Below, piece by piece: positions 1 to 41,532 of a DNA stretch of 64,000 nucleotides. The stretch covers positions 1-64,000 of the forward strand of contig CAJJAR010000037.1 of the NCBI GenBank assembly GCA_905182105.1, written 5' to 3'. The notes under the pieces were generated by a model. It did no database searches and had not been told where the DNA came from. It saw only the letters and a program-made list of their open reading frames with translations. Made by a program: the position numbers and the translations under genes. Source of the DNA: an uncultured Paracoccaceae bacterium. GTDB taxonomy: Bacteria > Pseudomonadota > Alphaproteobacteria > Rhodobacterales > Rhodobacteraceae. Numbering within the stretch: position 1 is the stretch's first letter; the number at the start of each line of letters is the position of its first letter.

Positions 1-1
1 G

Positions 2-7599: not shown

Positions 7600-7632
7600 A
7601 TAAATGGACCTGAGTCGCGCTTGCGGCTTGGG

Positions 7633-8868: not shown

Positions 8869-8968
8869 GATCGCGCTCCTTCTAAATCAAATACTTGGAC
8901 ACACTAGCCGAGGATACATTATTCCGATATTGTCCAAAATGAAAAGCAGTATCAAGAAAAACAAGTCA
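8869..8968. promoter_or_regulatory. Divergent promoter region puuD / LysR gene
   Basis: About 100 bp separate the start codons of puuD (minus) and the LysR gene (plus). LysR regulators normally bind such divergent gaps. The region is AT-rich around 8885-8965 and contains no open frame. I could not settle on a specific T-N11-A operator by eye. Confidence 0.4.
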
Positions 8969-9889
8969 ATGTCCTATTTGAATAACATACGTACCTTTGT
9001 AAGGGTTTACGAGCTTGGAAGCATGTCTGCGGCAGGCCGCGATTTACGCATTTCACCCGCTGTCACGTCATCACGTATTTCGCAGCTCGAAGAACATCTT
9101 AGCGTTCGCTTGTTCCAACGCACAACACGCAGTTTAACACCCACAGAGCAGGGCAAGGCGTTTTACAGTGGTGCCTGTGAAATTTTGGAATCTGTAGACA
9201 GTGCAGAAGCGCAGGTGGTCAACATCACCGATAACCCCAAAGGGTCGCTTTATGTCGCGGCACCTTTTGGTGTTGGACGCCGTCTAATCGCACCGCAAGT
9301 GCCTGCATTTATCGCTGAATATCCTGAGGTGAAAATTCGCCTTCGTCTTACGGATCGTAAAGTTGATTTGACGACTGAAGGGCTGGATCTTGCCTTCTTC
9401 CTTGGACAACCAGAGGACAGCAACCTTCGTATTCGTAAAATTTCTGATGTTGAACGCGTTTTATGCGCATCCCCAGAATACATCGCAGCACGTGGCAATC
9501 CGGCGTCGGGAACGGAATTGGTCGCTGATAAACATGAATGCTTGAATTTGCGTTTCCCAGGTGCGACAGAATTTGAATGGCGTCTTCAAACCGATGACGG
9601 TGCAAAAAAATTCCGCGTCACTGGCCGTTATGAATCAGATGATGGGGATGTACTGACGGAGTGGGCCTTGGGTGGGAATGGCATTGTGATGAAGCCAATC
9701 TTTGAGGTAGCGGATCATTTGAATGCTGGGCGTCTTATCCCAGTTGCCAGTCAAACACCGCCAACACCTATTCAAATGGCCTGTCTGTTTACACATCGCA
9801 AACGGCAAGATCCTAAAACCAGATTGTTTATGGATTTTGTAATTGAACGGATTTCAAAAGCAGTGCGCTATCGCACCAGCGGTTCTTAA
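8969..9889 (+). CDS. LysR-family transcriptional regulator of the urate cluster
   Basis: 306 residues from the ATG at 8969 (MSYLNNIRTFV). The ORF-track extension upstream runs antisense into puuD and is discarded, and an ATG at 8939 is possible. The N-terminal winged HTH covers about residues 1-60 (SMSAAGRDLRISPAVTSSRISQLEEHL), followed by a periplasmic-binding-protein-like effector domain. It lies divergent to puuD and tail-to-tail with uraH (4-bp overlap), a typical place for a LysR activator of urate genes. The inducer is not readable from sequence. A purine or ureide is the obvious guess. Confidence 0.85.
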   Translation: MSYLNNIRTFVRVYELGSMSAAGRDLRISPAVTSSRISQLEEHLSVRLFQRTTRSLTPTEQGKAFYSGACEILESVDSAEAQVVNITDNPKGSLYVAAPFGVGRRLIAPQVPAFIAEYPEVKIRLRLTDRKVDLTTEGLDLAFFLGQPEDSNLRIRKISDVERVLCASPEYIAARGNPASGTELVADKHECLNLRFPGATEFEWRLQTDDGAKKFRVTGRYESDDGDVLTEWALGGNGIVMKPIFEVADHLNAGRLIPVASQTPPTPIQMACLFTHRKRQDPKTRLFMDFVIERISKAVRYRTSGS

Positions 9890-10239
9890 CTACCGCGGTA
9901 GGTCGAATACCCAAACGGCGAAAGCAACAAAGGCACGTGATAATGTGCTGCTTCAGACATGCCAAAACGAATTGGAACAACGTTTAGAAAACGTGGTTCT
10001 TCAGGTGGTGTGCCGATCGCGTCAAGGTACCCGCCAGCATGAAACACCAACTCGTATGTCCCTATTTCGAATTCCTCTACAGGTAAAATTTGCCCGTTGG
10101 TGCGACCGTCATCATTTGTTAATAATGTTTTCAGGTGCTTGCGTGTCTCACCATCGATTTTGAAAAGTTCGATTTTTAGACCCTGTGCAGGGCAACCACG
10201 TGCCGTGTCCAAAACATGCGTCGTCAAATATCCGGCCAT
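9886..10239 (-). CDS. uraH: 5-hydroxyisourate hydrolase
   Basis: 117 residues, full length for the transthyretin-like family. It hydrolyses 5-hydroxyisourate (the PuuD product) to OHCU. The family marks are the N-terminal THVLDTARGCPAQG, the internal AHYHVPLLLSPFGYSTYRGS, and the invariant C-terminal YRGS. GAGGAG 8 nt upstream of the ATG supports the start. It is divergent from the puuE-uraD fusion, so the intergenic region at 10240-10399 probably carries both promoters. It overlaps the LysR gene tail-to-tail by 4 bp. Confidence 0.95.
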   Translation of the reverse strand: MAGYLTTHVLDTARGCPAQGLKIELFKIDGETRKHLKTLLTNDDGRTNGQILPVEEFEIGTYELVFHAGGYLDAIGTPPEEPRFLNVVPIRFGMSEAAHYHVPLLLSPFGYSTYRGS

Positions 10240-10399
10240 TGGTGCAGCTCCTCGTTTTCATCTAGTATATAGACAGACCGCGCACCGCATGGAAACCTAT
10301 GGTGCAACAACCCAGTCAAAAGACTGCTTATTGTTTTTATTGAAAAACAGGGCGATTATATTGGAATATGGGTACCCAAACCCTGAGAGGATGAATTGA
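10240..10399. promoter_or_regulatory. Divergent promoter region uraH / puuE-uraD
   Basis: 160 bp lie between the divergent starts of uraH and the puuE-uraD gene, with no credible ORF. It is the natural site for co-regulation of the two halves of the urate pathway by the adjacent LysR protein. GAGAGG at 10385-10390 is the ribosome binding site for the GTG at 10400. Confidence 0.4.
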
Positions 10400-11812
10400 G
10401 TGAACCGCTATCCCCGTGACATGAGTGGCCATGGTGCCAATCCACCCGCTGCAAATTGGCCAAACGGCGCAAAGATCGCAGTACAAATTGTGCTGAATTA
10501 CGAAGAAGGCGGCGAAAACAACATCCTTCACGGTGATGCCGCCTCTGAGGCTTTCTTGTCAGAGATCACAGGTGCTCAGCCATGGTTTGGTCAGCGTCAC
10601 TGGAACATGGAAACTCTGTACGAATACGGTTCTCGCGCAGGGTTCTGGCGCCTCCACAGGATGCTCAGCGACTTACCAATTACAGTCTACGGGGTGGCAA
10701 CAGCATTAGCCCGCGCACCACAGCAAGTTGCAGCGATGAAATCTTCAGGTTGGGAAATCGCCAGCCACGGCCTTAAATGGGTCGAACATAAAGACATGGG
10801 CGAAGAAGAAGAACGCACCCAAATCGCCGACGCCATTCGCCTGCACACCGAAGTTGTTGGGGAAGCTCCACAAGGTTGGTACACAGGGCGTTGTTCCAAC
10901 AACACTGTGCGCCTGACAGCGGAAACGGGCCAGTTCGCATATGTCGCGGACAGCTATGCTGATGATCTGCCGTACTGGTCGAAAGAGGGCGGCGTCGATC
11001 AATTAATTGTTCCCTATACTATGGACTGCAACGACATGCGCTTTAGCATCCAAGCAGGTTTTACCAACGGCGATCAGTTTGAATCCTATCTTAAGGATAG
11101 CTTTGATTTTCTGTATGAAGAGGGTGAAGCTGGCGTACCGAAGATGTTATCAATTGGATTGCATTGTCGCATCATGGGCCGTCCGGGGCGCGCAGCTGCA
11201 TTGCGTCGTGTCATTGAATATATGAAATCACATAAGGGTGTTTGGTTCGCCACGCGCCTTGAAATTGCACAACATTGGGCAAAGGAAAATCCAGCCATGA
11301 CCACCGCCCCCGCGTCTCAAATGACTCGCGAAAAGTTCGTATCCGAATTTGGTGGCATCTTTGAACACAGCGCGTGGATTGCTGAAGGTGCGTTTGATCT
11401 GGAACTGGGTCCAACACATGACAATGCCCAAGGGGTTCATCAGGCGCTGGCACGTGTATTCCGGTCTGCTACCGAAGAACAGCGTTTGGGCGTTCTGACT
11501 GCGCACCCTGATTTGGCTGGTAAACTGGCTGCAGCGAAACGTTTGACCGCTGAATCCACAGCTGAACAGGCCGCCGCTGGTTTGAATGCGCTGACCGCTG
11601 AAGAACACGCCAGCTTTACCGATTTGAACAATGCCTACACCACCAAATTTGGTTTCCCGTTCATTATCGCTGTCCGTGACAATACCAAGACCACCATCAT
11701 GGCTGCCTTTAAGCGACGGATTAGCAATGACCGTGATGTGGAGTTTTCTGAGGCATGCAAACAGGTCGAACGCATCGCAGAGCTGCGCCTGATCGAAAAG
11801 TTCGAAGCATGA
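10400..11812 (+). CDS. puuE: Fused allantoinase (PuuE type) and OHCU decarboxylase
   Basis: 470 residues with two domains. Residues 1 to about 300 form a polysaccharide-deacetylase-like allantoinase (NYEEGGENNILHGD, GWEIASHGLKWV, GWYTGRCSNNTVRL, GLHCRIMGRPGR). Residues from about 310 to 470 form an OHCU decarboxylase domain (FGGIFEHSAWIAE, LTAHPDLAGKLA, LNNAYTTKFGFPFIIAVR). The second makes S-allantoin from OHCU and the first opens allantoin to allantoate, so one protein performs consecutive steps. It starts at a GTG with GAGAGG 9 nt upstream. The stop overlaps allA in ATGA. Such fusions are known in other proteobacteria. Confidence 0.93.
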   Translation: MNRYPRDMSGHGANPPAANWPNGAKIAVQIVLNYEEGGENNILHGDAASEAFLSEITGAQPWFGQRHWNMETLYEYGSRAGFWRLHRMLSDLPITVYGVATALARAPQQVAAMKSSGWEIASHGLKWVEHKDMGEEEERTQIADAIRLHTEVVGEAPQGWYTGRCSNNTVRLTAETGQFAYVADSYADDLPYWSKEGGVDQLIVPYTMDCNDMRFSIQAGFTNGDQFESYLKDSFDFLYEEGEAGVPKMLSIGLHCRIMGRPGRAAALRRVIEYMKSHKGVWFATRLEIAQHWAKENPAMTTAPASQMTREKFVSEFGGIFEHSAWIAEGAFDLELGPTHDNAQGVHQALARVFRSATEEQRLGVLTAHPDLAGKLAAAKRLTAESTAEQAAAGLNALTAEEHASFTDLNNAYTTKFGFPFIIAVRDNTKTTIMAAFKRRISNDRDVEFSEACKQVERIAELRLIEKFEA

Positions 11813-12294
11813 GTATTACATTGAAGCTAGAGCCACTTACATGTGCAGAATTTGCGCCCTTTGGTGATGTTTTAGAGGTTGCGGGTGACCCTGACAAAGT
11901 CATCAACGCAGGCATGTGTGGCCGTTATCACGATCGCGCAAATATCGAATGTGATGGTGGTGCTGCTGGGATCAGCCTGTTCAAATCAGAGGCCCGCAGT
12001 TTGCCTATTAACCTAGATATGATGGAACGGCACCCTGACGGAAGCCAGGCGTTTCTACCGATGAGCTTGGACCCATTCATCGTGGTGGTTGCGCCTGATG
12101 ACAACGGAAAACCGGGTCAGCCAAGGGCGTTTATTACGACCGTGGGGCAAGGCGTGAACTATGCGAAAAACACGTGGCACGGCGTCCTAACCCCGTTACA
12201 CGATCCAGGCCTGTTCGCGGTTATAGATCGAATCGGGGAGGGGCCAAACCTGCAAGAGCACTGGTTTGAAACCCCGTTTCTGATCGAAAGCTAA
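11809..12294 (+). CDS. allA: Ureidoglycolate lyase
   Basis: 161 residues from the ATG at 11809, which overlaps the upstream stop (ATGA). The ORF-track start at 11755 is inside puuE. It releases urea and glyoxylate from ureidoglycolate. The cupin-like AllA fold is recognised from LTCAEFAPFGDVLE near the N-terminus, FLPMSLDPFIVVVAP, and the C-terminal NYAKNTWHGVLTPL with the conserved WH. It ends 4 bp from the convergent allE, which supplies its substrate. Confidence 0.92.
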   Translation: MSITLKLEPLTCAEFAPFGDVLEVAGDPDKVINAGMCGRYHDRANIECDGGAAGISLFKSEARSLPINLDMMERHPDGSQAFLPMSLDPFIVVVAPDDNGKPGQPRAFITTVGQGVNYAKNTWHGVLTPLHDPGLFAVIDRIGEGPNLQEHWFETPFLIES

Positions 12295-12297
12295 GTC

Positions 12298-13116
12298 CTA
12301 GCGTAGTTTCATGTGGCGGTTCACATCTTTGTACAAAAGATAGCGGAACCGTCCAGGGCCACCCGCATAACAGGCTTGTGGGCAGAAGGCGCGCAGCCAC
12401 ATGTAATCGCCTGCTTCGACCTCAACCCAGTCGCTGTTCAGGCGGTAGGCTGCTTTACCTTCAAGCACATAAAGCCCATGCTCCATAACATGGGTTTCTA
12501 GAAACGGGATCACACCACCCGGTTCAAAGGTCACGATGTTGACGTGCATGTCGTGGCGCAGATCTGTTGGTTCCACAAAACGTGTAGTCGCCCAACGTCC
12601 TTCGGTATCTGGCATAACGTTCGGGGCGACATCTTGTTCGTTGGTGATAATAACTTCTGGGTAGGGCAGGCCCTCAACTGGCTCGTATGCTTTGCGAATC
12701 CAGTGGAAACGCAATATTTCATCGGTCGCGTTGTGCAACGTCCAATCCGTGGCAGGGGGTAAAAATGCGTATCCACCTTCGGTAAGCGTATGTATCTTGC
12801 CATCAACGGTTAGGCTGGCACTTCCCTCGACAACAAACAATACACCCTCTGCCCCTTCATCCAGTTCGGGACGGTCAGATCCGCCTCCAGGTGATACTTC
12901 CATGATGTATTGTGAAAATGTCTCGGCGAAACCGCTTAGGGGGCGGGCAATTACCCAAAGGCGTGTTTTCTCCCAGAATGGCAAGAAACTGGTGACAATG
13001 TCGCGCATCGTGCCTTTGGGGATGACAGCGTAGGCATCGGTGAAAACAGCGCGGTCCGTCAGCAGTTGATCTTGGCCCGGGTGGCCCCCTTTGGGTGCGT
13101 AATACTTTGGCGACAT
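12298..13116 (-). CDS. allE: (S)-ureidoglycine aminohydrolase, bicupin
   Basis: 272 residues from the ATG at 13116, which has TGAGG about 6 nt upstream. The ORF track begins 52 codons too early. Two cupin domains span roughly residues 60-130 (FVVEGSASLTVDGKIHTLTEGGYAFLPP) and 180-260 (FEPGGVIPFLETHVMEHGLYVLEGKA). The second carries the His/Glu/His metal ligands. It removes ammonia from ureidoglycine to give ureidoglycolate for AllA. Allantoate amidohydrolase, which makes ureidoglycine, is not in the window. The gene is divergent from the hydroxycinnamate operon. Confidence 0.92.
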   Translation of the reverse strand: MSPKYYAPKGGHPGQDQLLTDRAVFTDAYAVIPKGTMRDIVTSFLPFWEKTRLWVIARPLSGFAETFSQYIMEVSPGGGSDRPELDEGAEGVLFVVEGSASLTVDGKIHTLTEGGYAFLPPATDWTLHNATDEILRFHWIRKAYEPVEGLPYPEVIITNEQDVAPNVMPDTEGRWATTRFVEPTDLRHDMHVNIVTFEPGGVIPFLETHVMEHGLYVLEGKAAYRLNSDWVEVEAGDYMWLRAFCPQACYAGGPGRFRYLLYKDVNRHMKLR

Positions 13117-13202
13117 GAAAAACCTCAATTTGTGTTGTTCTATGTTGGGGCGCTGTCCGCTTAATATCCACCCGCAATCGAACGAAGGCACTGTTCGTGT
13201 GG

Positions 13203-13217
13203 ATTTGATAATCAAAT
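13203..13217. promoter_or_regulatory. 15-bp palindrome ATTTGAT-A-ATCAAAT
   Basis: This is a perfect inverted repeat with a single central base, in the divergent allE / SDR intergenic region about 85 bp upstream of the SDR start. It resembles a dimer operator. The half-site TTGAT is FNR-like but the spacing (1 instead of 4) is wrong for FNR. It could be a second site for the operon's MarR protein or serve allE. Confidence 0.45.
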
Positions 13218-13261
13218 GTCCGAAACGATGGGTAAAAAGAAGACTATACAATCCACAGATA

Positions 13262-13282
13262 TTAGTTATCAATTATAACTAA
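13262..13282. promoter_or_regulatory. Palindromic operator TTAGTTAT-N5-ATAACTAA, likely MarR site
   Basis: Two exactly complementary 8-bp half-sites are separated by CAATT. It lies 20 bp upstream of the SDR start codon and just before its ribosome binding site AAGGAG, the normal position for a repressor operator at or after the transcription start. The operon encodes a MarR-family protein, and MarR repressors typically bind AT-rich palindromes of about this length. Autoregulation, with relief by a CoA-thioester or free phenolic acid, is inferred. Confidence 0.65.
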
Positions 13283-13302
13283 ATATCTAAGGAGTGCGGT
13301 AC

Positions 13303-14067
13303 ATGGAAATTTCAGGACAAATGGCATTGGTCAGCGGCGGCGGCAGCGGACTGGGAGCCGCAACTGCACGCCATCTCACCAGCTTGGGCGCTAAGGTTGC
13401 TATTCTTGATTTTGATATCACTCGTGCACAAGCTGTTGCTGAAGAAATTGGTGGCGTGGCTGTTCAAGCAGATGTTGGCGATGAAGAAGCAGTAAACGCA
13501 GCTATGCAAAGCGCGTCTGAGCAACTCGGCGATGTCGCACGAATTGCGGTAAACTGCGCAGGCGTTGGCTTAGCGGCCCGCATTGTTGGACGCGAGGGCA
13601 AGTTGTCCTTTGACGTTTTTGAAAAGACCCTGCGCGTGAACCTATTTGGAACCTATAATGTAATGAGCCATGCCGCTAGGCGTATGGCTGAACTTGAGCC
13701 ACTTGATGACAACGAGCGTGGGGTGATCATCAATACCGCTTCCGTTGCCTATGAGGATGGCCAGTTGGGCCAAGCAGCCTATGCCGCATCCAAAGGTGCA
13801 ATTGCATCAATGTGTTTGCCAGCCGCGCGTGAGCTGGCCCAATCGGGTGTCCGTGTCATGGCTATCGCACCTGGACTGTTTCAGACCCCAATGATGGAAG
13901 GGCTGCCCCCAGAAGTAACATCAAAGATCACATCGAACATTCCGTTTCCTGCCCGTCTGGGTGCGCCCGAAGAATACGCGTTGTTGGCCGTACAAATCGT
14001 AAATAACAGGTTCCTGAATGGCACCACAATTAGGTTGGACGGCGCTGTACGCCTACCACCACGTTAA
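13303..14067 (+). CDS. SDR family 3-hydroxyacyl-CoA dehydrogenase-like protein
   Basis: 254 residues from the ATG at 13303, 8 nt after AAGGAG. It is a Rossmann-fold short-chain dehydrogenase: cofactor motif SGGGSGLGAATARHL, the NCAGV segment, catalytic Ser in NTASVAYEDG and YAASKGA for Tyr-x-x-x-Lys. The PGLFQTPMMEGLP segment resembles 3-hydroxyacyl-CoA dehydrogenase type 2 (HSD10-like) enzymes. As the first gene of the operon it would oxidise the 3-hydroxy-arylpropionyl-CoA made by the crotonase. The product is a 3-ketoacyl-CoA, so this gene points to beta-oxidative side-chain removal. The exact substrate is inference. Confidence 0.88.
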   Translation: MEISGQMALVSGGGSGLGAATARHLTSLGAKVAILDFDITRAQAVAEEIGGVAVQADVGDEEAVNAAMQSASEQLGDVARIAVNCAGVGLAARIVGREGKLSFDVFEKTLRVNLFGTYNVMSHAARRMAELEPLDDNERGVIINTASVAYEDGQLGQAAYAASKGAIASMCLPAARELAQSGVRVMAIAPGLFQTPMMEGLPPEVTSKITSNIPFPARLGAPEEYALLAVQIVNNRFLNGTTIRLDGAVRLPPR

Positions 14068-14076
14068 AGGAACGAT

Positions 14077-14844
14077 ATGCCAGAACCTATGCTAAAAATT
14101 TCTGTCGAGGGCACCATTGCAACCCTAACGATAAACCGACCCGACAAACGTAACGCTATGTGTGAAGCACTTTTGGATGACTTGGACGCATTCTTTTCTA
14201 ACCCTCCAAAACAGGTACGCGTTGTCATTCTAACAGGAACTGCAGGCCACTATTGTTCGGGTCTGGATCTGTCAGAACACGTCCATCGTTCAGCCGAGGA
14301 GAACCTACATCACTCCCGTGCATGGCATGGCGTGATGGAGAAAATACAGTTTGGCGGCTTGGCAGTTGTCTCAGCAATGTTCGGTGCCGTTATCGGTGGT
14401 GGGCTTGAGATAGCAGCAGCCACCCATGTGCGCATTGCAGAACCTTCAACTATCTTTCAACTGCCTGAAGGGCGCCGCGGTATCTTTGTTGGCGGTGGTG
14501 CCACCGCTCGCGTTGGACGCCTGATTGGTGCCGAACGCATGACTGAGATGATGCTGACTGGTCGCAAATATAATGCAGATGAAGGGTTGGCCTTGGGCCT
14601 CACTCATTACTCAGTTGGTGAAGGTGAAGCATTGGAACTAGCGCAGCAATTGGCTGACAAGATTTCTCGCAATGCCCCCCTGTCAAATTACATGATGATC
14701 CAATCGATTTCACGGATCAACGATATGTCTCAAAGCGATGGTTTGTTCACAGAATCTTTGGTCGCGGCGATGTCTCAAACAACACCCGACGCTGAAGAGG
14801 GGTTAAAGGCCTTTCTTGAAAAACGCGCGCCAAAGTTCCGGTGA
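14077..14844 (+). CDS. Enoyl-CoA hydratase/crotonase, probable hydroxycinnamoyl-CoA hydratase
   Basis: 255 residues of the crotonase fold. Oxyanion-hole segments are HYCSGLDL and GAVIGGGLEIA, and a candidate catalytic Glu lies in LPEGRRGIFVGGG. It follows the SDR gene by 9 bp and precedes the MarR gene by 4 bp. Given the feruloyl-CoA-synthase-like ligase in the same operon, hydration of a hydroxycinnamoyl-CoA is likely. Whether it also performs the retro-aldol lyase step of Ech-type enzymes cannot be told from sequence. The SDR neighbour argues for simple hydration. Confidence 0.85.
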   Translation: MPEPMLKISVEGTIATLTINRPDKRNAMCEALLDDLDAFFSNPPKQVRVVILTGTAGHYCSGLDLSEHVHRSAEENLHHSRAWHGVMEKIQFGGLAVVSAMFGAVIGGGLEIAAATHVRIAEPSTIFQLPEGRRGIFVGGGATARVGRLIGAERMTEMMLTGRKYNADEGLALGLTHYSVGEGEALELAQQLADKISRNAPLSNYMMIQSISRINDMSQSDGLFTESLVAAMSQTTPDAEEGLKAFLEKRAPKFR

Positions 14845-14848
14845 TGTG

Positions 14849-15337
14849 ATGGGTAAAGCGGTCTCCAAAAAGGGTGAACAGCCCAGTGTCGATAAGACAA
14901 ACTTTGAGACTCTCAATGGATTCACGGGCTATCATCTGAAACGGGCTACCAACCTGATGATGTCTGATTTGAACGCAACGTTGAAACCGTTTGAGTTGCG
15001 CCTCTTATCCTACACGGCACTGGTTTTGATCGTTGATAACCCGAGCATTAGAATGTCGCAATTGGCGGCGGCGATGGATGTTGAACGTCCGAATATGGTT
15101 GTGATTGTTGATGCGCTGGAAAGCCGTGAACTGATCAGCCGCCAACGTCTTGAAACTGACCGCCGCGCCTATGCTTTGAACATTACGCTGGCTGGACGAC
15201 GCTTGTATGAAAAAGCAACCGTGGCGGTGCACGCACACGAAGAACGCCTAACGCGCCAACTTGATGCAAAGACCCGTGACAAAGTTATTGAAGCTATGAA
15301 ATTGATCCTGAAAATCGGGGGCGTTGCAGATACATGA
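14849..15337 (+). CDS. MarR-family transcriptional regulator
   Basis: 162 residues from the ATG at 14849, four bases after the crotonase stop. The ORF-track start at 14816 is inside the upstream gene. Winged HTH of the MarR type: RLLSYTALVLIVDNPSIRMSQLAAAMDVERPNMVVIVDALESRELI, followed by the wing RLETDRRAYALNITLAGRR. Long helices at both ends give the dimer interface. Its place inside the ligase/hydratase operon is like hydroxycinnamate-responsive MarR repressors (CouR, FerR, HcaR types). The palindrome at 13262-13282 is the likely target. The stop overlaps the ligase start in ATGA. Confidence 0.88.
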   Translation: MGKAVSKKGEQPSVDKTNFETLNGFTGYHLKRATNLMMSDLNATLKPFELRLLSYTALVLIVDNPSIRMSQLAAAMDVERPNMVVIVDALESRELISRQRLETDRRAYALNITLAGRRLYEKATVAVHAHEERLTRQLDAKTRDKVIEAMKLILKIGGVADT

Positions 15338-17151
15338 AACGTACAACTGAATTTTTGAAACACGCCGTAACACGCACTGACCGTGATGATGGTACAATTC
15401 TTCTCACCTCAGATTATACATTGGGGCCTGTGACGGATCGCACTGGCGACTGGTTGCACAACTGGGCGGACAAGGCTGGTGATCGCGTTTTTATCGCTGA
15501 ACGCAGCGGTGCCGGTTGGCGAGAAGAAAGCTACACCGTAACTTTGCAAAAGGTACGTGCGATTGCCTCTTCATTACTTGCGCGTGGGATGGGGCAAGTA
15601 ACCCCTATCTTGATCATGTCCGGCAACGGGGTCGATCACGGCTTGCTCACGTTGGCTGCGCAATATGTTGGCGTTCCAACAGTTCCCGTGGCGGAACAGT
15701 ATTCACTGATCACTGGTGCACATGAGCGATTGCAACATGCCATAGAGCTAGTGCGCCCCAAGATGGCATATGTCATTGATGCCGAACAATACGCCGCCGC
15801 TATCGTCCATCCTGCCCTGAAAGGTGTGGAAATCGTTGCAACGAAAACAGGGCAGACGGGCAATGTCACGTCATTTGATAGCCTTCTGTCAGGTGACAAC
15901 AGCGTTGATGTTGATGCTGCCTTTGCATCTGTCACACCAGATACCGTTGCTAAAATCTTGATGACCAGTGGTTCCACGTCTTTACCAAAAGGCGTGCTGA
16001 CCACCCAAAAAATGATGTGCGTGAATCAAGCGCAATTGGCAGATTCGTTGCCGTTTCTACGCGCCCGTCCACCTCGCATTGTAGATTGGTTGCCATGGAA
16101 TCACGTTTTTGGTGGGTCCCACAATTTCAACATGATACTTGCGAATGGTGGCAGTTTATACATCGATGATGGTAAACCCGTTAAGGGATTGTTTGATCGT
16201 ACCCTCGAAAATCACGCGCTGATAACAGGCAATATTGTTTTCAACGTACCAATGGGTTTTTCAATGTTGCTGGAAGGTTTGCGCAAAGATGCGGATTTGC
16301 GCAAACGGTTTTTTGAAAATCTGGATATGGTGTTTTATGCAGGTGCGTCACTCCCCCAAGATGTTTGGGAAGGTTTTGAAACCCTTGCGATGGAAGTTAA
16401 GGGGGAAGTACCCCTTATGACCTCATCATGGGGCCTGACCGAAACAGCACCGGCAACGATGATCCAACAAGAACCGACCGAAAGTTCTGGCGTCATTGGA
16501 GTGCCGATGACAGGCGTGACGCTGAAACTGATCCCCGACAGCGATATGCGCTGTGAGGTCAGGGCTAAGGGACCAAACATCATGAATGGCTATTTCGAAG
16601 ACCCAGCCAAAACGGCAGCGGCCTTTGATGATGAAGGTTACTTTATTACCGATGATGCAATGGCGTTTGTTGATCCAAATGACGCGAACCGTGGAATGCG
16701 GTTTGATGGACGACTGTCTGAAGACTTCAAATTGCAGTCAGGTACATGGGTACGTGCCGCAGGCTTGCGCCTTGAAATGCTCTCAACCCTCGCACCATTT
16801 GTCGCTGATCTGGTCGTGACAGGGCAGGATCGCAATGAAATTGGCCTCATGATTTTCCCAAATCGTGAAGCAATTCAAGCAGCTGGTTACACGCTAGATG
16901 ACGACAATGGTGCCTATGTTTGCCCCAAATTGCGTGCCGATCTTGAACACCGCCTAAAGGAACGCGCGGCGGGGACCTCTGGCTCCTCAACCCATGTGGC
17001 CCGTGCCATTGTATTGGCAGAACCCCAGTCCCTTGTGGACGGGGAAATAACTGCCAAGGGCAACCTGAACTTCCGCACAGTCCTGACCCGTCGGGCTGAC
17101 TTGGTAACGCGACTGTATAACAATGATGCCGCCGGCATTGCGAAACTCTGA
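15334..17151 (+). CDS. fcs: Feruloyl-CoA synthase-like acyl-CoA ligase
   Basis: 605 residues of the adenylate-forming (ANL) superfamily, with the length and layout of the feruloyl-CoA synthase subgroup. Motifs: P-loop MTSGSTSLPKGVL, WNHVFGGSHNFN (the WLPWNHTFGG hallmark of this subgroup), the core SSWGLTETAPA, and the hinge/C-terminal FDGRLSEDFKLQSGTWV with a final catalytic Lys in ITAKGNLN. It would activate ferulate, p-coumarate or a similar aromatic acid with ATP and CoA. It starts within the MarR stop codon (ATGA). Substrate range is inferred from subgroup and operon. Confidence 0.88.
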   Translation: MKRTTEFLKHAVTRTDRDDGTILLTSDYTLGPVTDRTGDWLHNWADKAGDRVFIAERSGAGWREESYTVTLQKVRAIASSLLARGMGQVTPILIMSGNGVDHGLLTLAAQYVGVPTVPVAEQYSLITGAHERLQHAIELVRPKMAYVIDAEQYAAAIVHPALKGVEIVATKTGQTGNVTSFDSLLSGDNSVDVDAAFASVTPDTVAKILMTSGSTSLPKGVLTTQKMMCVNQAQLADSLPFLRARPPRIVDWLPWNHVFGGSHNFNMILANGGSLYIDDGKPVKGLFDRTLENHALITGNIVFNVPMGFSMLLEGLRKDADLRKRFFENLDMVFYAGASLPQDVWEGFETLAMEVKGEVPLMTSSWGLTETAPATMIQQEPTESSGVIGVPMTGVTLKLIPDSDMRCEVRAKGPNIMNGYFEDPAKTAAAFDDEGYFITDDAMAFVDPNDANRGMRFDGRLSEDFKLQSGTWVRAAGLRLEMLSTLAPFVADLVVTGQDRNEIGLMIFPNREAIQAAGYTLDDDNGAYVCPKLRADLEHRLKERAAGTSGSSTHVARAIVLAEPQSLVDGEITAKGNLNFRTVLTRRADLVTRLYNNDAAGIAKL

Positions 17152-17164
17152 AGAAAGAAAACAG

Positions 17165-18037
17165 ATGGTAGATTTTTCCAAAGTCCGGGCGATTGATTTT
17201 CACACACACGCAGAGGAACCTTGTGGCTGCCATGCGGATGACGGCTATGACGATCTGCAAGCAACGATGGCCAGCTATTTTCGTGCCCCTTGGAAACACC
17301 CACCAACAATCCCAGAAACAGCGCAGCATTACCGTGACCAAAACATTGCGGCAGTGATCTTTCCCGTCGATTCAGAACGTGAAACTGGTTACCGGCGCTA
17401 CAAGAACGAAGAGGTCGCGGAATTGGCCGCTGAAAACGACGATGTATTAATTCCATTTGCCAGTATCGATCCTCATAAAGGCAAAATGGGCCAACGTGAA
17501 GCACGTCGTTTGATCCGTGACTATGGCATCAAAGGATTCAAATTCCACCCAACCATGCAAGGGTTCTACCCCAACGACCGCATGGCTTATGGCTTATACG
17601 AGACAATCGCCGAAGAGGGTGGCATCGCACTATTCCACACGGGTCAAACTGGTGTGGGATCAGGTATGTCAGGCGGCAATGGGATGCGTTTGAAATACTC
17701 AAACCCAATGTATATGGATGACGTTGCGGTGGATTTCCCAGAAATGAAAATCATCCTCGCCCACCCATCATTTCCTTGGCAGGAAGAAGCGCTGGCCGTG
17801 GCCCAGCACAAGCCGAATGTGTACATTGATCTGTCAGGTTGGTCCCCTAAATATTTTCCGGATATTCTGGTAAAATACTGCAATTCAATATTAAAGAAAA
17901 AGGTATTGTTTGGTTCTGACTGGCCAATGATTACACCAGAGCGTTGGTTGGCCGATTTCGAAAAGATCACAATCAAAGATGAGCTGCGCGAAGGCATCAT
18001 TAAAGGTAATGCAATGAAGCTGCTTGGGGTCGAGTAA
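17165..18037 (+). CDS. Amidohydrolase family protein (ACMSD-like), hydroxycinnamate operon
   Basis: 290 residues from the ATG at 17165, 13 bp after the ligase stop. The ORF-track start at 17123 lies inside fcs. TIM-barrel metal hydrolase of the amidohydrolase_2 group: FHTHAEEPCGCHAD near the N-terminus, KGFKFHPTMQGF, LFHTGQTGVG, ILAHPSFPWQEEAL, and FGSDWPMI with the metal Asp. Relatives include decarboxylases and C-C hydrolases. As last gene of the operon it may hydrolyse the beta-keto-CoA intermediate or a later ring product. In my recollection a similar gene takes part in the CoA-dependent beta-oxidative hydroxycinnamate route of Agrobacterium. This role is inference. Confidence 0.82.
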   Translation: MVDFSKVRAIDFHTHAEEPCGCHADDGYDDLQATMASYFRAPWKHPPTIPETAQHYRDQNIAAVIFPVDSERETGYRRYKNEEVAELAAENDDVLIPFASIDPHKGKMGQREARRLIRDYGIKGFKFHPTMQGFYPNDRMAYGLYETIAEEGGIALFHTGQTGVGSGMSGGNGMRLKYSNPMYMDDVAVDFPEMKIILAHPSFPWQEEALAVAQHKPNVYIDLSGWSPKYFPDILVKYCNSILKKKVLFGSDWPMITPERWLADFEKITIKDELREGIIKGNAMKLLGVE

Positions 18038-18189
18038 TCGGCCAGCGGCAGCTAGAATAATTAACGCACCATTTATATGATGTTGGTCCTGGGTTTGTTT
18101 TGCACTCACTTCAGCAATGGTTGGCTTGTGTACATTAATCACCTAAACGGCCAAACATAGATTAACGTGGAAAAGCAAAAGGCCCCAAC

Positions 18190-18519
18190 ATGATCATTTA
18201 CGGACTAAGCACATGCTCAGATTGCCAGAAAGCGCAAAAAGCATTGGAGGCCGCAGGTAACACAATCACGTTTCGGGATGTGCGCGCAGAACCTTTGACT
18301 GAGGCGGAGCTTGAAGAACTATTAATTGAGTTTGGTGATTGCTTGGTGGATCGCACCACTAATGACTATAGGGCATTGAGCGCTTGGTTAAAGAACTCTG
18401 AAGCAGATGCACAGATCTCTTCCAAACCGAAGGTAATGGCCCGCCCCGTCATTCAAGACGAGGACCGCTACTATTTAGGTTGGACTGATGAGGTTCAGCA
18501 GGCTTTACTGGCTGATTAA
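18190..18519 (+). CDS. ArsC/Spx/YffB-like thioredoxin-fold protein
   Basis: 109 residues, full length for the ArsC/Spx family. The N-terminal IYGLSTCSDCQKAQKALEAAG holds a CxxC (CSDC) on the thioredoxin-like fold, and the C-terminal half has SSKPKVMARPVIQDEDRYYLGW with the RPV of the family. It resembles the YffB/ArsC-like subgroup with unclear substrate rather than a proven arsenate reductase. No ars genes are nearby. It is a single-gene unit by appearance, 152 bp after the hydroxycinnamate operon. Confidence 0.8.
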   Translation: MIIYGLSTCSDCQKAQKALEAAGNTITFRDVRAEPLTEAELEELLIEFGDCLVDRTTNDYRALSAWLKNSEADAQISSKPKVMARPVIQDEDRYYLGWTDEVQQALLAD

Positions 18520-18894
18520 GAGGCGCTTACCCAACGCAGACGCAGCGCGTTAAAGACAAAAACTCATATCAGATTTAGCTTGATATTACGCGTACCGCAC
18601 GCTGTGCTTGCAGTGGTCGAAATCATAACTACTAATTTTCTAGACGCGCTGGTTGCAATGTTTTCATCCAAAGTTTCTCTTCAACAAACCCAGGTAGCAA
18701 TTCGTTACCAATTACAAGAGGCGGTTCACATAAACCCTTGGATTTCAGACACTTTCTGAGCTCTGCATGACGGGCGAAAAGCTGTCAGCCAACGGCAACC
18801 CAAAAGTCATCAACTTACCAGAAATCCATAGCTGTTTTCAGATATCCAAGTCTAAATTCACCAATAAATTAACTGGCGCAATCATGGACGAATG
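18520..18894. other. 375-bp intergenic region with a possible gene remnant
   Basis: No intact gene is visible. On the minus strand, 18632-18784 is open for 50 codons without a start and reads like a real C-terminus (LCEPPLVIGNELLPGFVEEK). The adjoining frame upstream (LMTFGLPLADSFSPV) also looks coding-like, as if one gene had been broken by frameshifts and stops. I do not recognise the family. It could equally be chance. No tRNA or strong terminator was found here. Confidence 0.3.
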
Positions 18895-32012: not shown

Positions 32013-33162
32013 AGATTGGGAACAAGGTGGCTTTGGCCTCTACATCCACTGGCCATTTTGCGCCGCCAAATGCCCCTATTGCGATTTCAACAGCCACGTT
32101 TCGCGTAACATCAACCATTCCGCCTGGCGCGACGGCTATCTAGCCGAACTGCGTCGCGCAGCCCGTGAAACCAAAGGCCGCGTGTTGCGCAGCGTGTTTT
32201 TCGGTGGCGGCACCCCCAGTCTAATGGATCCAGACGTTGTGGCTGATATCATGTCAGAAATCTATCGCCTCTGGCCCACCGCCAACGATCTTGAAACCAC
32301 GCTTGAGGCCAACCCCAGCTCGGTCGAGGCTGGCCGCTTTGCCGCCTTCCGTCAGGCAGGCATCAATCGTATATCCATGGGTGTTCAGGCCCTCAACGAC
32401 GAAGACCTACGTAGACTGGGCCGCATCCATACAGTGGAGGAGGCGTGCACAGCATTCGACATTGCACGCACGACCTTTGATCGCGTTAGTTTTGATTTGA
32501 TCTATGGGCGTCAGAAACAAACACTCGATGATTGGAAAACAGAGCTAAAGAAGGCTCTAAATATGGCGATTGATCACCTTTCGCTATACCAGCTCACTAT
32601 TGAACAAGGCACAGCATTCGGCGATCGTTACAACGCGGGCAAGCTGGCTGGACTCCCCAGCGACGATCTTGGCGCAGATATGTACGAAGTGACCCAGGAC
32701 ATATGTGGCGAAGCCGGCATGCCATCCTACGAGGTATCCAACCACGCCCGTGATGGGGCGCAGTCACGTCACAACCTCGTCTACTGGCGCTATGGTGACT
32801 ACGTAGGAATCGGCCCAGGTGCGCACGGTCGTTTGACCGTCGATGGGCAACGGACGGCTACGGAATGTTTCAGTAACCCAAAACGCTGGCTCGACGCCGC
32901 GTTGACTGGCGAAACGGAAAAACCCCGCGAGCCGTTGGCGCGCGAGGATCAAGCAAGTGAACTTTTATTGATGGGCCTTCGATTGAAGGAAGGCATCGAC
33001 CCGAAGCGGTTTTTTAACCTGTCAGGCCGTAACATCGATCAAGACGCCATAAATGAGCTGATTGATTTAAATCTACTTCACACCGAAAAAGACAGAATTA
33101 TCGTTTCAAATCAGGGATTTATGATATTGAACGCTGTTTTAAGACGTCTCCTAGAGGCTTAG
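32005..33162 (+). CDS. hemW: Haem chaperone HemW (radical SAM, HemN-like)
   Basis: 385 residues starting at a TTG within the end of rdgB. The first conserved block is [19 protein letters not shown], with the radical SAM cysteines in CAAKCPYC, followed by [20 protein letters not shown], and [11 protein letters not shown]. The C-terminal HemN domain has [14 protein letters not shown]. The family is the haem-binding chaperone HemW rather than the true coproporphyrinogen oxidase HemN, judged by length and the missing HemN N-terminal extension. The 3' end overlaps convergent parB by 4 bp. Confidence 0.92.
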
Positions 33163-34052
33163 GCCCCACCTAGCCTACGACAAAGATCATCGAGATCGTC
33201 GAGAGAGCCATAATTAATGACCATCTGACCTTTCTCTGAACCTGGTTTATGGTTCAACAAAACCTTCATCTTGAGACCCGCTGATAAATCACCCTCCAGT
33301 GCTTTGGTATCGGCATCTTTGCCTGACTTGCCACCTACAACGTTTTCTCCATTCGTAGATTCTCCTTTAGATGCTGACGACTTCACAAGTGCCTCAGTCG
33401 CACGAACGCTGAGACCACCCTTGATTATAAGTTTGGCCAATTCAGATGCGTTCTCTGCTGGTACCAACGCACGAGCGTGACCAGAAGACAATTCACCAGT
33501 GCGAACAAGCTCAATTACATCATCTGGCAAGTTCAGCAAACGGAGCAAATTGGCGATGTGGCTACGGCTTTTGCCTAAAGCCTCTGCCATCTTTTCTTGC
33601 GTATGACCAAAGCGATCCATTAACTGACGATACCCAACAGCTTCTTCCATAGGGTTCAGATCAGCACGCTGAATGTTTTCAATGATCGCAACTTCTAAAA
33701 CCTCGACATCAGAAAACTGACGCACAACAACAGGCAGTTCATGCAATTTTGCCATCTGCGATGCGCGCCAGCGGCGTTCGCCCGCAACTATCTGGTAACG
33801 ACTATTGTCCAGAACCCGCACAATCAGCGGCTGGATAACACCTTTTTCTTTGATGGACGCAGCCAACTCATCCAAATCACCTTGAATAAATTGTTTGCGT
33901 GGTTGATCAGGATTAGCTTCGATTTGCTCGATTGGAACAAAGCGTTCAGCAACAGGCCCACCTTGTACTGGCGTTTCAGCCTCTGTTACGTCAGCCAACA
34001 ACGCTGAAAGCCCACGACCAAGTCCACGTTTGTTGTCTCTACCTGAAGCCAT
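33159..34052 (-). CDS. parB: Chromosome partitioning protein ParB
   Basis: 297 residues. CTPase/clamp protein that loads at parS and spreads around the origin region. N-terminal KRGLGRGLSALLADV (ParA-contacting region), ParB domain with IEANPDQPRKQF and RYQIVAGERRWRASQMA, the ENIQRADLNPMEEA motif, central HTH (TQEKMAEALGKSRSHIANLLRLL), and a C-terminal dimer domain. AGGGG precedes the ATG. Downstream of parA by 19 bp. Two parS sites lie 1.4 and 3.3 kb away. Confidence 0.96.
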   Translation of the reverse strand: MASGRDNKRGLGRGLSALLADVTEAETPVQGGPVAERFVPIEQIEANPDQPRKQFIQGDLDELAASIKEKGVIQPLIVRVLDNSRYQIVAGERRWRASQMAKLHELPVVVRQFSDVEVLEVAIIENIQRADLNPMEEAVGYRQLMDRFGHTQEKMAEALGKSRSHIANLLRLLNLPDDVIELVRTGELSSGHARALVPAENASELAKLIIKGGLSVRATEALVKSSASKGESTNGENVVGGKSGKDADTKALEGDLSAGLKMKVLLNHKPGSEKGQMVINYGSLDDLDDLCRRLGGA

Positions 34053-34071
34053 GTTGCACCCCTATTTTAGG

Positions 34072-34872
34072 TTATAGTTTGTTCTTTTCGATCAATTCTT
34101 GAGCCAATGCACGATATGCAGATGCCCCTTTGGACGCTGAATCATATATCAAAACCGGCATGGCAAAGGATGGTGCCTCGCTCAAGCGGATGTTTCTTGG
34201 AATGACTGTTTTAAACACCAGATCACCCAAATTATCACGCGCATCTTGCTCAACCTGTTGTGAAAGGTTGTTACGCTTATCATACATCGTAAGCACAACG
34301 CCTTCGATCCTAAGACCGGTATTTCCGGTTTGTCGAACTTCGCGGATCGTCAACATCAATTGAGACAACCCTTCAAGTGCAAAGAATTCGCTTTGAAGCG
34401 GCACCAATACTGTGTGTGCCGCAATCATAGCATTTACAGTCAAAAGGCTCAAAGATGGTGGGCAATCGATAAGAATGAAGTCAAATTCAAACTCATCAAT
34501 TTTCGGTTGGCGCAATGCGTCGTGTAACAAAAAGCTGCGCTTTTCGTTCGAAACCAGTTCAAGATCAGCCGAGCTCAGATCAACAGTTGCTGGAATGATC
34601 GCCAAATCTTCGATTGCAGTCGCCTGTATAACATCCTTTAGGTCGATATCTTCGAGTAAAAGCTCGTAAGTCGTAAACTCACGATCACTTTGTTCAACCC
34701 CCAAACCCGTTGACGCATTTCCTTGCGGATCCAAATCAACCACCAAAACACGATATCCTACTTCAGCCAGCGCAGCGGAGAGGTTAATTGTTGTCGTAGT
34801 CTTACCAACGCCCCCTTTTTGGTTCGCCACGGCAATAATTTTAGGACCATCTCGGCGCGTTAGATTAGACAC
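34072..34872 (-). CDS. parA: Chromosome partitioning ATPase ParA
   Basis: 266 residues from a GTG at 34872, with AGGA 8 nt upstream and an 8-bp overlap with rsmG. The ORF-track TTG at 34878 has poor spacing. Deviant Walker A IAVANQKGGVGKTTTTINL, Walker A' VLVVDLDPQGNASTGLG, and Walker B FDFILIDCPPSLSLLTVNAM. Drives origin segregation with ParB-parS. Part of the leftward mnmE-mnmG-rsmG-parA-parB series next to the origin. Confidence 0.96.
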   Translation of the reverse strand: MSNLTRRDGPKIIAVANQKGGVGKTTTTINLSAALAEVGYRVLVVDLDPQGNASTGLGVEQSDREFTTYELLLEDIDLKDVIQATAIEDLAIIPATVDLSSADLELVSNEKRSFLLHDALRQPKIDEFEFDFILIDCPPSLSLLTVNAMIAAHTVLVPLQSEFFALEGLSQLMLTIREVRQTGNTGLRIEGVVLTMYDKRNNLSQQVEQDARDNLGDLVFKTVIPRNIRLSEAPSFAMPVLIYDSASKGASAYRALAQELIEKNKL

Positions 34873-35479
34873 GGGCAAAATCCTTAATCTTTAAGATAGC
34901 TGCGTCATTATTAGTCTTACTTGTAATTTCCTCGTATTCAAATGACCAGTTTTCTTGTGCCTGTAAAATCTCTTTTTCCCAAGTCTCGCCTTTTGGAAGT
35001 ATCGCAACGCCATTTTTCGCGGAATGGCGCTCCACAAATTCTAGCAGACCGTTCAAATCCGTTAGCGCACGTGCTGAAATTACACTTGCCCCAATGGGGT
35101 CAAGTACTTCGATACGTTCAGCATGGACTTTCACATTTAAACCGATCTCACGAACAGCATTACGAAGGAACGCGCATTTGCGTTGATCACTTTCGACAAG
35201 ATAAAATTGCATATCTGGTCGAAGTTCTTTGGCAAAAATGGCTAGAACAATACCTGGCAAGCCACCACCGCTACCAAAATCAGCCCAAACTGAGCCCTCA
35301 ACAGCAATGTCAAAGATCTGAGCAGAATCCCAAATATGACGATCCCAGATTTCTGGCAGACTGGATTTTGAAACCAAATTAATCTTTGGATTCCACTTTT
35401 CTATCAAGGCAACGTAGGCTTCCAAGCGTTCAAATGTTTCACGTGAAACATCCGTCTTTAGCCAGCTTGGACTGTTCAT
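34865..35479 (-). CDS. rsmG: 16S rRNA (guanine527-N7)-methyltransferase RsmG
   Basis: 204 residues. SAM-dependent methyltransferase (GidB). Recognised from [32 protein letters not shown] and the SAM loop [17 protein letters not shown]. Starts in the mnmG stop (ATGA). A perfect parS site is encoded in-frame as DVSRETF at about residues 10-15, so the coding sequence doubles as a ParB loading site. Confidence 0.95.
35435..35450. promoter_or_regulatory. parS centromere site (perfect) inside rsmG
   Basis: TGTTTCACGTGAAACA is the exact 16-bp consensus parS palindrome. It lies in the 5' end of rsmG, 0.56 kb from the parA start and about 5.2 kb from the proposed oriC. This is a ParB nucleation site. 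Confidence 0.93.
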
Positions 35480-37335
35480 GCAGATTTCTTTTCAAATTGT
35501 CTAATTTTTGCCAATAACAAAGCCAACGCTGCCGGCGTCATACCATCAATACGCCCTGCCTGGGCCAATGTAGATGGACGAACCAACAATAACTTCGCCT
35601 TTAATTCGTTAGAAAGCCCATCAATAGGCTGATAATCAAACATTGTGGGGATTTTGTGCGCTTCATCCTTCGCAATCCGATCAATGTCACGCTGCTGTCG
35701 TGATAGGAAGCTTGCGTACGTCGCTTCTCGCTCTAGCTGTTTCTGCGTTTCTACATCCAGCTCAGCCAGCTTTGGCATCAATGGTAACAAATTTTCAAAC
35801 TTTACGCTTGGAAATGCCAGGATTTGATAGGCCGTGCGCCGCGAGCCGTCTTGGCTAACCTGAATGCCTGCGGTCTGCGCCTCTTTCGGAGTGAAGGTTT
35901 TAGCTTGAATCGTCTCGTATCCCTTAGCCAACCTCTCCATCTTAGCATCAAAGACATTGATGCGCTCACTTGAAGCTGCACCCAACTCTTTAGCCAGTGG
36001 AGTCAAGCGCTGATCAGCATTGTCTGCTCGAAGGGATAGACGGAACTCCGCACGAGATGTAAACATCCGATATGGCTCTGTCACACCCCGAGTTGTCAGA
36101 TCGTCAATCATGACACCAATGTAGCTTTCGCTGCGACTAAAGTGGACAGGATCACGCCCAAGCGCTGAGAGCGCTGCGTTGAAGCCGGCAACCATACCTT
36201 GCGCCGCCGCTTCCTCATATCCTGTAGTTCCGTTGATCTGACCCGCAAGATATAGACCACCAACGGTTGGTAGAGCGAGAGTATCATCAAGAACACGAGG
36301 GTCGATATAGTCGTACTCGATTGCATATCCAGGTTGTAGAATTTTCACATCCTCCAAACCATAGATCGATTTCACATAATCTTCTTGAACAGATTCAGGC
36401 AGGGATGTCGAAATTCCATTAGGATAAACTGTATGATCGTCCAAGCCCTCTGGCTCTAGAAAAACCAAATGGCTGTCCTTTTCGCCAAAGCGAACAATCT
36501 TATCTTCGATAGATGGGCAATACCGCGGCCCTACGCCATCAATGTGACCGCCATACATAGCAGATTTTTTAAGGTTTTCGCGGATAATGTCGTGTGTTTT
36601 TTCATTCGTATAAGTCATCCCACACGAAATTTGGCGGGCGGATACTTTATTCGACAGGAATGAGAACAAGGCAGGTTCATCGTCCCCCGCCTGCGATTCA
36701 AGTAAATCCCATTTGATTGTACGTCCGTCAAGACGCGGTGGCGTGCCTGTTTTCAATCGACCAAGTGGCAATTCAAAAGAATCGATTCGCTCTGCCAACT
36801 TGACCGAAGCCTTATCACCCATGCGTCCACCAGAATATGAGACATCACCGATATGAATGACACCACGAAGGAAGGTACCCGTTGTGAGAATAACGCGCTT
36901 TGCCTTGATTTCGGATCCATCAGCCAGCTGAACCCCAATGACGGTGTCGCCCGACATCAAAAAATCAACAACCTCTCCAATGACAATTGACAGGTTTTCA
37001 CGATTTTCAGTTTCAGCAAGCATCGACTGCTGATAAATTTTACGATCTGCTTGGGTTCGAGGCCCCTGCACTGCCGGTCCCTTTTTTCGATTTAGCAGAC
37101 GAAATTGAATCCCAGCAAGATCAGAAACACGACCCATGACACCATCAAGGGCATCAATTTCACGTACCAGGTGACCTTTCCCAAGACCACCAATGGCAGG
37201 ATTACAAGACATCACCCCAATACTGTCTCGCGTCATAGTTACCAAAGCGGTCGTCGCTCCAAGGCGTGCAGACGCATGTGCTGCTTCTGATCCGGCGTGA
37301 CCGCCACCAATAACGAGTACATCAAAATGTTTCAC
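35476..37335 (-). CDS. mnmG: tRNA uridine-5-carboxymethylaminomethyl modification enzyme MnmG
   Basis: 619 residues from the GTG at 37335 ([13 protein letters not shown]), 9 nt after GGAG. The ORF track starts 16 codons earlier with residues atypical of the family, and another GTG at 37344 abuts the GGAG. FAD enzyme that with MnmE modifies wobble U34. N-terminal dinucleotide fold [21 protein letters not shown], the signature [39 protein letters not shown]-like block, and the C-terminal MnmE-binding domain ending [11 protein letters not shown]. The initiation codon sits inside a parS site. Confidence 0.96.
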
Positions 37336-37343
37336 GTGAAACA
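37328..37343. promoter_or_regulatory. parS centromere site (perfect) at the mnmG start codon
   Basis: This is a second exact copy of TGTTTCACGTGAAACA. It covers the preferred mnmG initiation GTG (37335-37333) and part of its leader, between mnmG and mnmE, about 3.3 kb from the proposed oriC. The two copies lie 1.9 kb apart. I found no other exact copy in the window. Confidence 0.93.
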
Positions 37344-40085: not shown

Positions 40086-40535
40086 TCAGAACTTAACAAC
40101 TACGGAAATTACAATTACGATCATCAATACTGTTGGTACTTCGTTCATGATCCGGTAGCGCCGCCCACTTAATACGCCATCGCCTGCTACAAAATTCTTT
40201 TGCTGCTGTCCCAACCAATAGTGGAATAATGACATTGAGATTACGCAAGCTGCTTTTACCCAGGGCCAATATTCAGACCAATCAACAATGCCGGGTGTGA
40301 AAACAAGTAAAAGCCCAAAGATCCATGTGCTGGTCATCGCAGGTGTCATGATCACTTTAAATAATTTGCTTTCCATCATGCAAAACAGGTCATGGGTTTC
40401 GCCACTGAGTTCTACTTTCTCAGAATGATGAACAAACAATCGTGGCAAATAGAAAATACCAGCCATCCATGAAATGATGGAAATAATATGGATCGATAAA
40501 ATCCATGGATAGGCTTGGGCAAAAACGTCCGTCAT
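40086..40535 (-). CDS. hemJ: Protoporphyrinogen IX oxidase HemJ
   Basis: 149 residues from the ATG at 40535, with GGAG 8 nt upstream. The ORF-track start adds a 25-residue extension not seen in the family. Membrane protein with about four helices. The first holds the conserved His (YPWILSIHIISIISWMAGIFYLPRLFVHH), and LSGRRYRIMNEVPTVLMIVIVISVV ends it. It oxidises protoporphyrinogen in haem synthesis, typical for alphaproteobacteria lacking HemG/HemY. The gene borders the proposed oriC, and hemE, often found close by, is not present. Confidence 0.9.
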   Translation of the reverse strand: MTDVFAQAYPWILSIHIISIISWMAGIFYLPRLFVHHSEKVELSGETHDLFCMMESKLFKVIMTPAMTSTWIFGLLLVFTPGIVDWSEYWPWVKAACVISMSLFHYWLGQQQKNFVAGDGVLSGRRYRIMNEVPTVLMIVIVISVVVKF

Positions 40536-40610
40536 ATCACTCTCCATCATAGCCTTACTTAATATAATATATATATAAAGAGAAAGATGATGATTTAGTA
40601 GGGAAGCCAT

Positions 40611-40933
40611 TTTCTGTGGATTAATTAGTTATCCCCATTTTTATACATGAGGGATAGAAATTAATCATATTTTGTGGATGGACTGGTTGACTATAAAATG
40701 AACCCTTAAAATTAAGACTTTTTCTTCTCAGATTAAACTATTTTATCATTAAAACCTGTGGATATTGTTTGGATAACTTTTTCATCAACAGAAAGATGTT
40801 ATTCATATCCCAAGGGGATGAAATGAGTGAAAACGAGGTGAGAAAGATATGTTATCCCCTCTTGCGCAGTTACTCCCCATTATTCAGAAGACTTCATGAA
40901 TAAACTCTTAACTTAAGACATAGGTTATCCACA
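40611..40933. other. Probable chromosomal origin of replication (oriC)
   Basis: An AT-rich non-coding gap of about 400 bp lies between hemJ (leftward) and maf (rightward), with a cluster of DnaA-box-like 9-mers: 40615-40623 (-, TAATCCACA), 40629-40637 (+, TTATCCCCA), 40673-40681 (-, CCATCCACA), 40757-40765 (-, ATATCCACA), 40768-40776 (-, TTATCCAAA), 40852-40860 (+, TTATCCCCT), 40925-40933 (+, TTATCCACA, perfect). AT-rich tracts around 40640-40670 and 40700-40750 could be the unwinding element. Gene orientation flips at this point, and parAB plus two parS sites lie within 7 kb. The remaining part of the gap, 40536-40610, is an AT-rich leader of hemJ. Confidence 0.85.
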
Positions 40934-41532
40934 TGGTTATGCCCGTTATCCTCGCTTCTGGTTCTGAGATCCGTGCCCAAATGCTGCGTCAGGCGGGTGT
41001 GGATTTTGATGTTCAAGTCGCTCGTGTGGATGAGCAAATGATAAGAGAAGCTCTTGTTGCTGATGGTGCCCTGCCCCGTGATATTGCTGACGCATTAGCA
41101 GAATCCAAGGCGCGCAAGGTCGCCCAAAAGAACTATGATGCGTTTGTTATCGGTTGTGATCAGGTGTTGGAATTCAACGGAAACCTATTGTCCAAACCCA
41201 AAAGTCCTGACGAAGCGATCGATCAGATCATCGCAATGCGCGGAGAGCGCCATACATTACTATCCGCCGCAGTCATCTATAATGAGGGAAAACCGATCTG
41301 GCGCCACGTTGGACAAGTTCGCCTGAGAATGCGGGATGCAACGGACGCCTATATATCGGGCTATGTTGAGCGAAATTGGGATAGCATCCAGAACAGTGTT
41401 GGTGGATATAAATTAGAAGAAGAAGGTGTGCGGTTGTTTCACAGCGTTGAAGGGGATTACTTTAACGTGCTTGGTATGCCACTTTTGCCACTTCTAGCAT
41501 TTTTAACCCTTCGTGGAGTGATTGAACAATGA
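40933..41532 (+). CDS. maf: Maf-family nucleotide pyrophosphatase
   Basis: 199 residues. House-cleaning dTTP/UTP or modified-nucleotide pyrophosphatase. VILASGSEIRAQMLRQAGVDFDV at the N-terminus, ESKARKVA, the catalytic CDQVLEFNG (Asp general base), SKPKSPDEA, and GGYKLEEEG. The ATG shares its A with the last base of the perfect DnaA box, so its promoter lies within the origin region. First of maf-aroE-coaE-dnaQ, with an ATGA overlap into aroE. Confidence 0.93.
   Translation: MVMPVILASGSEIRAQMLRQAGVDFDVQVARVDEQMIREALVADGALPRDIADALAESKARKVAQKNYDAFVIGCDQVLEFNGNLLSKPKSPDEAIDQIIAMRGERHTLLSAAVIYNEGKPIWRHVGQVRLRMRDATDAYISGYVERNWDSIQNSVGGYKLEEEGVRLFHSVEGDYFNVLGMPLLPLLAFLTLRGVIEQ

Follow-up and report, generated by a model that had tools for sequence, protein, structure and literature searches.

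The hemJ–maf intergenic region is a probable chromosomal replication origin in an Ascidiaceihabitans-like marine Rhodobacteraceae

Results

A predicted oriC between hemJ and maf

The non-coding gap between hemJ and maf (40536–40932) is in all likelihood the DnaA-dependent oriC of the main chromosome in this Ascidiaceihabitans-like marine member of the Rhodobacteraceae. The evidence consists of a cluster of DnaA boxes, an AT-rich tract, conservation of both in relatives, conserved synteny, a switch in GC skew and nearby parS sites. A first-pass annotation had proposed a probable chromosomal oriC between these two genes, and its proposal is supported by the box enrichment, by the skew minimum of the contig and by chromosome-scale skew in relatives. 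The window (the whole 64,000-nucleotide stretch analysed) belongs to contig C37, which is 68,891 bp long and comes from a draft genome of 2.66 Mb in 49 unordered contigs, estimated to be 88.5% complete.

The gap is 397 bp long and has a G+C content of 32%, compared to ~50% for the contig. It had been delimited earlier as 40611–40933. Its description as AT-rich and non-coding stands, but the left border should be 40536, as the earlier one cut off the AT-rich tract. The start of hemJ (UPF0093; 40086–40535, minus strand; PF03653, E = 4.7e-55) is most likely at 40535 rather than 40610, since the conserved domain is consistent with the shorter form and homology to relatives stops at that point. Moving the start to this position brings the AT-rich tract at 40556–40603 into the gap. 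On the other side, maf occupies 40933–41532 on the plus strand, with its ATG at 40933 (PF02545, E = 7e-43). Composition, boxes and skew all mark this intergenic region as the predicted oriC, and relatives have kept its length (median 404 bp, range 358–429).

DnaA boxes are enriched in the gap

Seven DnaA-box-like 9-mers had been counted in the gap. The cluster is confirmed, but the figure of seven depends on the cut-off: between 40611 and 40933 there are five boxes within one mismatch of TTATCCACA and ten within two, namely one perfect copy, four with one mismatch and five with two. The leftmost, TAATCCACA (40615–40623, minus strand), adjoins the AT-rich tract and is R1-like in position and orientation. 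It is followed by the moderately conserved TTATCCCCA (40629–40637, plus strand, one mismatch) and by the weak CCATCCACA (40673–40681, minus strand, two mismatches), which is not conserved. Two boxes with one mismatch each lie 11 bp apart on the minus strand in the middle of the gap, ATATCCACA (40757–40765) and TTATCCAAA (40768–40776); most relatives have a box corresponding to the former, near –180 to –190 from maf. Four weak boxes on the plus strand, each with two mismatches, come next: TCATCAACA (40782–40790), TTATTCATA (40799–40807), TTATCCCCT (40852–40860) and TTATTCAGA (40880–40888). The second of these is conserved in position as TTATCCTT (87.5%). The only perfect box, TTATCCACA, lies at 40925–40933 on the plus strand and, as the first-pass annotation had stated, overlaps the maf start codon by one base, its final A.

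To assess enrichment over AT-matched sequence, a check that the annotation had called for, the gap itself was shuffled with dinucleotides preserved. The expected numbers are 0.21 boxes at one mismatch or fewer and 2.2 at two or fewer, and none of 1,500 shuffles reached the observed five or ten. The highest counts obtained with any of 300 permuted control words were 2 and 7 at the same thresholds. A scan for rival clusters at one mismatch, covering 889 kb of the 2.66-Mb genome, found the gap to be the densest cluster, the runner-up being a 390-bp stretch with two boxes versus five. The other 21 perfect boxes, listed genome-wide, form no clusters. Because the counts exceed those of all shuffles, of the permuted words and of the rest of the 889 kb, the box cluster is real and far beyond chance.

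The gap is conserved among relatives

We collected the corresponding loci of relatives with Maf (80 named and 30 further) and found the gap to be syntenic in about 107 of them. In nearly all complete loci, the order is parB-parA-rsmG-mnmG-mnmE-rho-hemJ to the left of the gap and maf-aroE-coaE-dnaQ to its right (rsmG had no query of its own). When 78 gaps were aligned, conservation averaged 62.7%, the 9-mers with the highest values being the 40615 box (92.7%) and the 40925 box (92.6%); the block at 40581–40603, behind the AT-rich tract, and the 40799 box came next. Of 99 distinct sequences, 76 have GTGGATTA at the site of the 40615 box. A box with at most one mismatch occurs at exactly the position of the maf-start box in 86 of 99 distinct relatives. 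The family-wide footprint is thus an AT tract with a GATGATG block, an inward box ~320 bp before maf, and a box on the maf start codon.

The arrangement hemJ-gap-maf is that of most Rhodobacteraceae compared. Some more distant relatives (e.g. G045, G048, G050 and G051) retain hemE-gap-COG1806-maf, while in G012 and G026 the order is hemJ-gap-COG1806-maf and hemE lies at another locus. In the source genome, hemE (PF01208) lies on contig C25, away from the gap, and COG1806 (PF03618) gave no match. Six relatives have rho-gap-maf (G004, G010, G013, G020, G031 and G036; loci L091, L092, L100, L096, L104 and L105); here a box-bearing gap of 517–549 bp persists, with boxes sparse in the GC-rich ones. 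The only UPF0093 gene found in these six is diverged and lies elsewhere in the genome. Our reading is that the origin stayed put while hemE, COG1806 and sometimes hemJ left or moved one by one.

An AT-rich tract lies beside a strong inward box

AT content rises to 85% at about 40561–40600, next to the boxes. The stretch 40556–40603, which combines an AT-rich tract with the conserved block AAAGRATGATGRTTTWGTAGG behind it, is the likely DNA-unwinding element (DUE), judging from its AT content, its conservation and the skew minima. Nine-mers at 40582–40595 are 88–92% conserved across 78 genomes. The block AAAGRATGATGRTTTWGTAGG itself (40581–40603), which separates the AT-rich tract from the first box, is conserved to the same degree as the DnaA boxes and fits neither the 13-mer nor the DnaA-trio rules.

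Other motifs associated with origins were also considered. Three matches to the E. coli 13-mer repeats occur in the gap at three mismatches, versus 1.6 expected, which is not significant. No run of four or more 5'-[TA]A[GA]-3' triplets, as in the DnaA-trio of the basal unwinding system, is seen near a box on either strand, and folding of the AT tract and first boxes as a DNA hairpin yielded nothing (z = –0.97). The gap contains no match to the IHF consensus, and no tRNA or Rfam matches were obtained across the window.

GC skew switches at or near the locus

The annotation had predicted a minimum of cumulative GC skew at this site. On the scale of the contig, this was borne out: over the whole of C37, the minimum falls at 40558, inside the gap, and the GT-AC minimum falls at 40585, both at the AT-rich end. 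Because divergent genes partly predict such a local minimum, chromosome-scale skew was sought in relatives. In a genome of the same genus (G004; 3.73-Mb contig, skew sampled in 32 stretches of 20 kb), skew is negative as far as 127 kb, then positive until ~2.0 Mb, apart from one sample close to zero, and negative from there on. The switch in sign falls between the 107–127 kb and 127–147 kb samples, orthologous maf is at 126,978–127,568, and a local minimum at 128,026 lies within the orthologous gap. The maximum, near 2.0–2.1 Mb, is roughly opposite the locus (half-chromosome point, 1.99 Mb). In G024, G020 and G014, the sign changes within about 0.02–0.2 Mb of the locus, the turn being broad and the sampled minimum lying 20–200 kb away from it. 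The local minimum of G010, at 382,189, is ~60 bp outside the gap.

At the left end of the window (1–18523), GC skew is positive, opposite to the sign expected left of an origin, and genes are mostly on the plus strand. A local inversion or an inserted segment left of ~18.5 kb is therefore possible.

Neighbouring genes include parAB and two parS sites

The gene names of the first-pass annotation were upheld by Pfam for hemJ/UPF0093, Maf, Rho, ParA, ParB, AroE, CoaE and DnaQ-type RNase_T; SecB was likewise identified, and mnmE, mnmG and rsmG are named from their translations only. Genes parB (33159–34052; ParB_N, HTH_ParB and ParB_C) and parA (34072–34878; AAA_31) together occupy 33159–34878 on the minus strand. 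Two parS sites had been placed close by, and both prove to be perfect copies of GTTTCACGTGAAAC, one within the start of rsmG (35436–35449) and the other within the start of mnmG (37329–37342). They are the only perfect parS sites in the genome. The same two-site layout, in the coding starts of mnmG and rsmG, recurs in the inspected Rhodobacteraceae loci that span the region.

Genes on either side had also been described as co-directional with forks leaving this point. This is true for about 33.2–40.5 kb and 40.9–43.6 kb, but not over the whole contig, where leading and lagging orientations account for 17.3 kb versus 19.5 kb left of the origin and for 9.4 kb versus 16.3 kb right of it. With the lagging orientation holding a slight majority on either side, co-directionality is weak evidence. 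The dnaA gene is not adjacent to the gap but sits on contig C9 (24765–25247); adjacency of dnaA to the origin is common but not a defining feature.

Discussion

Alternative readings of the gap

The divergence of the two genes and the box on the maf start codon would also fit a divergent hemJ/maf promoter region, with DnaA serving as a transcription regulator and replication starting elsewhere. We consider this very improbable. The gap persists where hemJ is absent, ten boxes (two mismatches or fewer) and an AT-rich tract surpass the needs of a promoter, and a chromosome-scale skew switch lies at or near the locus in four chromosomes. Placement of the origin at another locus, such as near hemE (the Caulobacter-type flank, contig C25) or near dnaA (C9), has precedent, in that the Caulobacter origin adjoins hemE (PMC1914354) and dnaA adjoins the origin in many bacteria. 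However, no box cluster was seen near either gene, with two scattered one-mismatch boxes in 20 kb for hemE and three in 10 kb for dnaA, and hemE is 0.66 Mb (G014) and 0.58 Mb (G024) from the maf locus, away from the skew switch. These observations leave the idea scarcely credible.

Because parAB and parS are also found on plasmids, of which Rhodobacteraceae have many, one could also ask whether C37 represents a secondary replicon, either a chromid or a plasmid, with a plasmid-type parAB and the gap as its origin. We give this virtually no weight: the neighbourhood is that of a core chromosome (rho, mnmE, mnmG, secB, hslUV, mutS), its central part is conserved in about 107 loci, and in each of G004, G014, G024 and G020 the largest contig is the one carrying the locus.

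How initiation might proceed

With the gap taken as the chromosomal oriC, its anatomy and established oriC biology together suggest a mechanism, and we infer that DnaA binding, unwinding, helicase loading and initiation take place here. DnaA, encoded on contig C9, would bind the strong boxes near both ends of the gap, at 40615 and 40925, and would then fill the weaker boxes in between. The resulting filament may melt the AT-rich tract at 40556–40603 beside the 40615 box, after which DnaB would be loaded onto the opened strands and a pair of forks would set off bidirectionally. The parS sites, 3.3 and 5.2 kb to the left, would be bound by ParB, which together with ParA would then move the newly copied origin away.

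A single point of interest is left over, namely the DnaA box locked onto the maf start codon. Maf is a nucleotide pyrophosphatase, and its gene is linked to septation. One thought is that the box provides regulatory coupling, such that maf would be switched off as DnaA fills the origin and initiation would directly gate maf expression; we regard this as unlikely. It is equally possible that the box is fixed merely as the outer end marker of the origin.

With an origin pinned in a draft genome, replichores can guide the ordering of contigs, and metagenomic coverage can be used to read growth rates.

Comparison with known origins

Caulobacter crescentus Cori resembles the gap described here in being intergenic, of comparable size, and endowed with both DnaA boxes and an AT-rich stretch. 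The wider surroundings are alike as well, rho and hemJ being close by in one direction and maf-aroE-coaE-dnaQ in the other. Cori is located between hemE and COG1806/CC0001 (PMC1914354), and hence the gap occupies the corresponding place on the chromosome, with different genes around it. It differs from Cori in that both classical flanks are absent and in that the gap contains neither the full CtrA site TTAA-N7-TTAA, which is also absent from the gaps of 90 of 99 relatives, nor the CcrM motif GANTC. Absence of the full CtrA site makes Caulobacter-style silencing by CtrA appear unlikely here. Absence of GANTC is uninformative, because the gaps of relatives hold from 0 to 7 copies.

Relative to E. 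coli oriC, the flanking genes are different and convincing 13-mer repeats are lacking, but the overall plan is shared: an AT-rich unwinding tract lies beside a strong inward box (TGTGGATTA), with further boxes beyond. In E. coli, the R1 box (TGTGGATAA) is directly beside the AT-rich unwinding tract.

We found no marker-frequency or cloned-origin test of this locus in Rhodobacteraceae in the open-licence literature. Chromosomal oriCs in 101 closed Rhodobacteraceae genomes have been placed by Ori-Finder, with the same criteria as those applied here, proximity to parAB among them (PMC6699656). R. sphaeroides oriC1 was placed by skew and Ori-Finder (PMC6315104). Judged by these criteria, the gap shows no essential difference from the surveyed oriCs: it has the skew minimum, the local GC minimum, the DnaA boxes and the adjacent parAB, and is the same predicted element. 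The find is solid but ordinary, because the position is the one expected for the family; the gap is a standard oriC, predictable both for the family and by the published criteria (PMC6699656).
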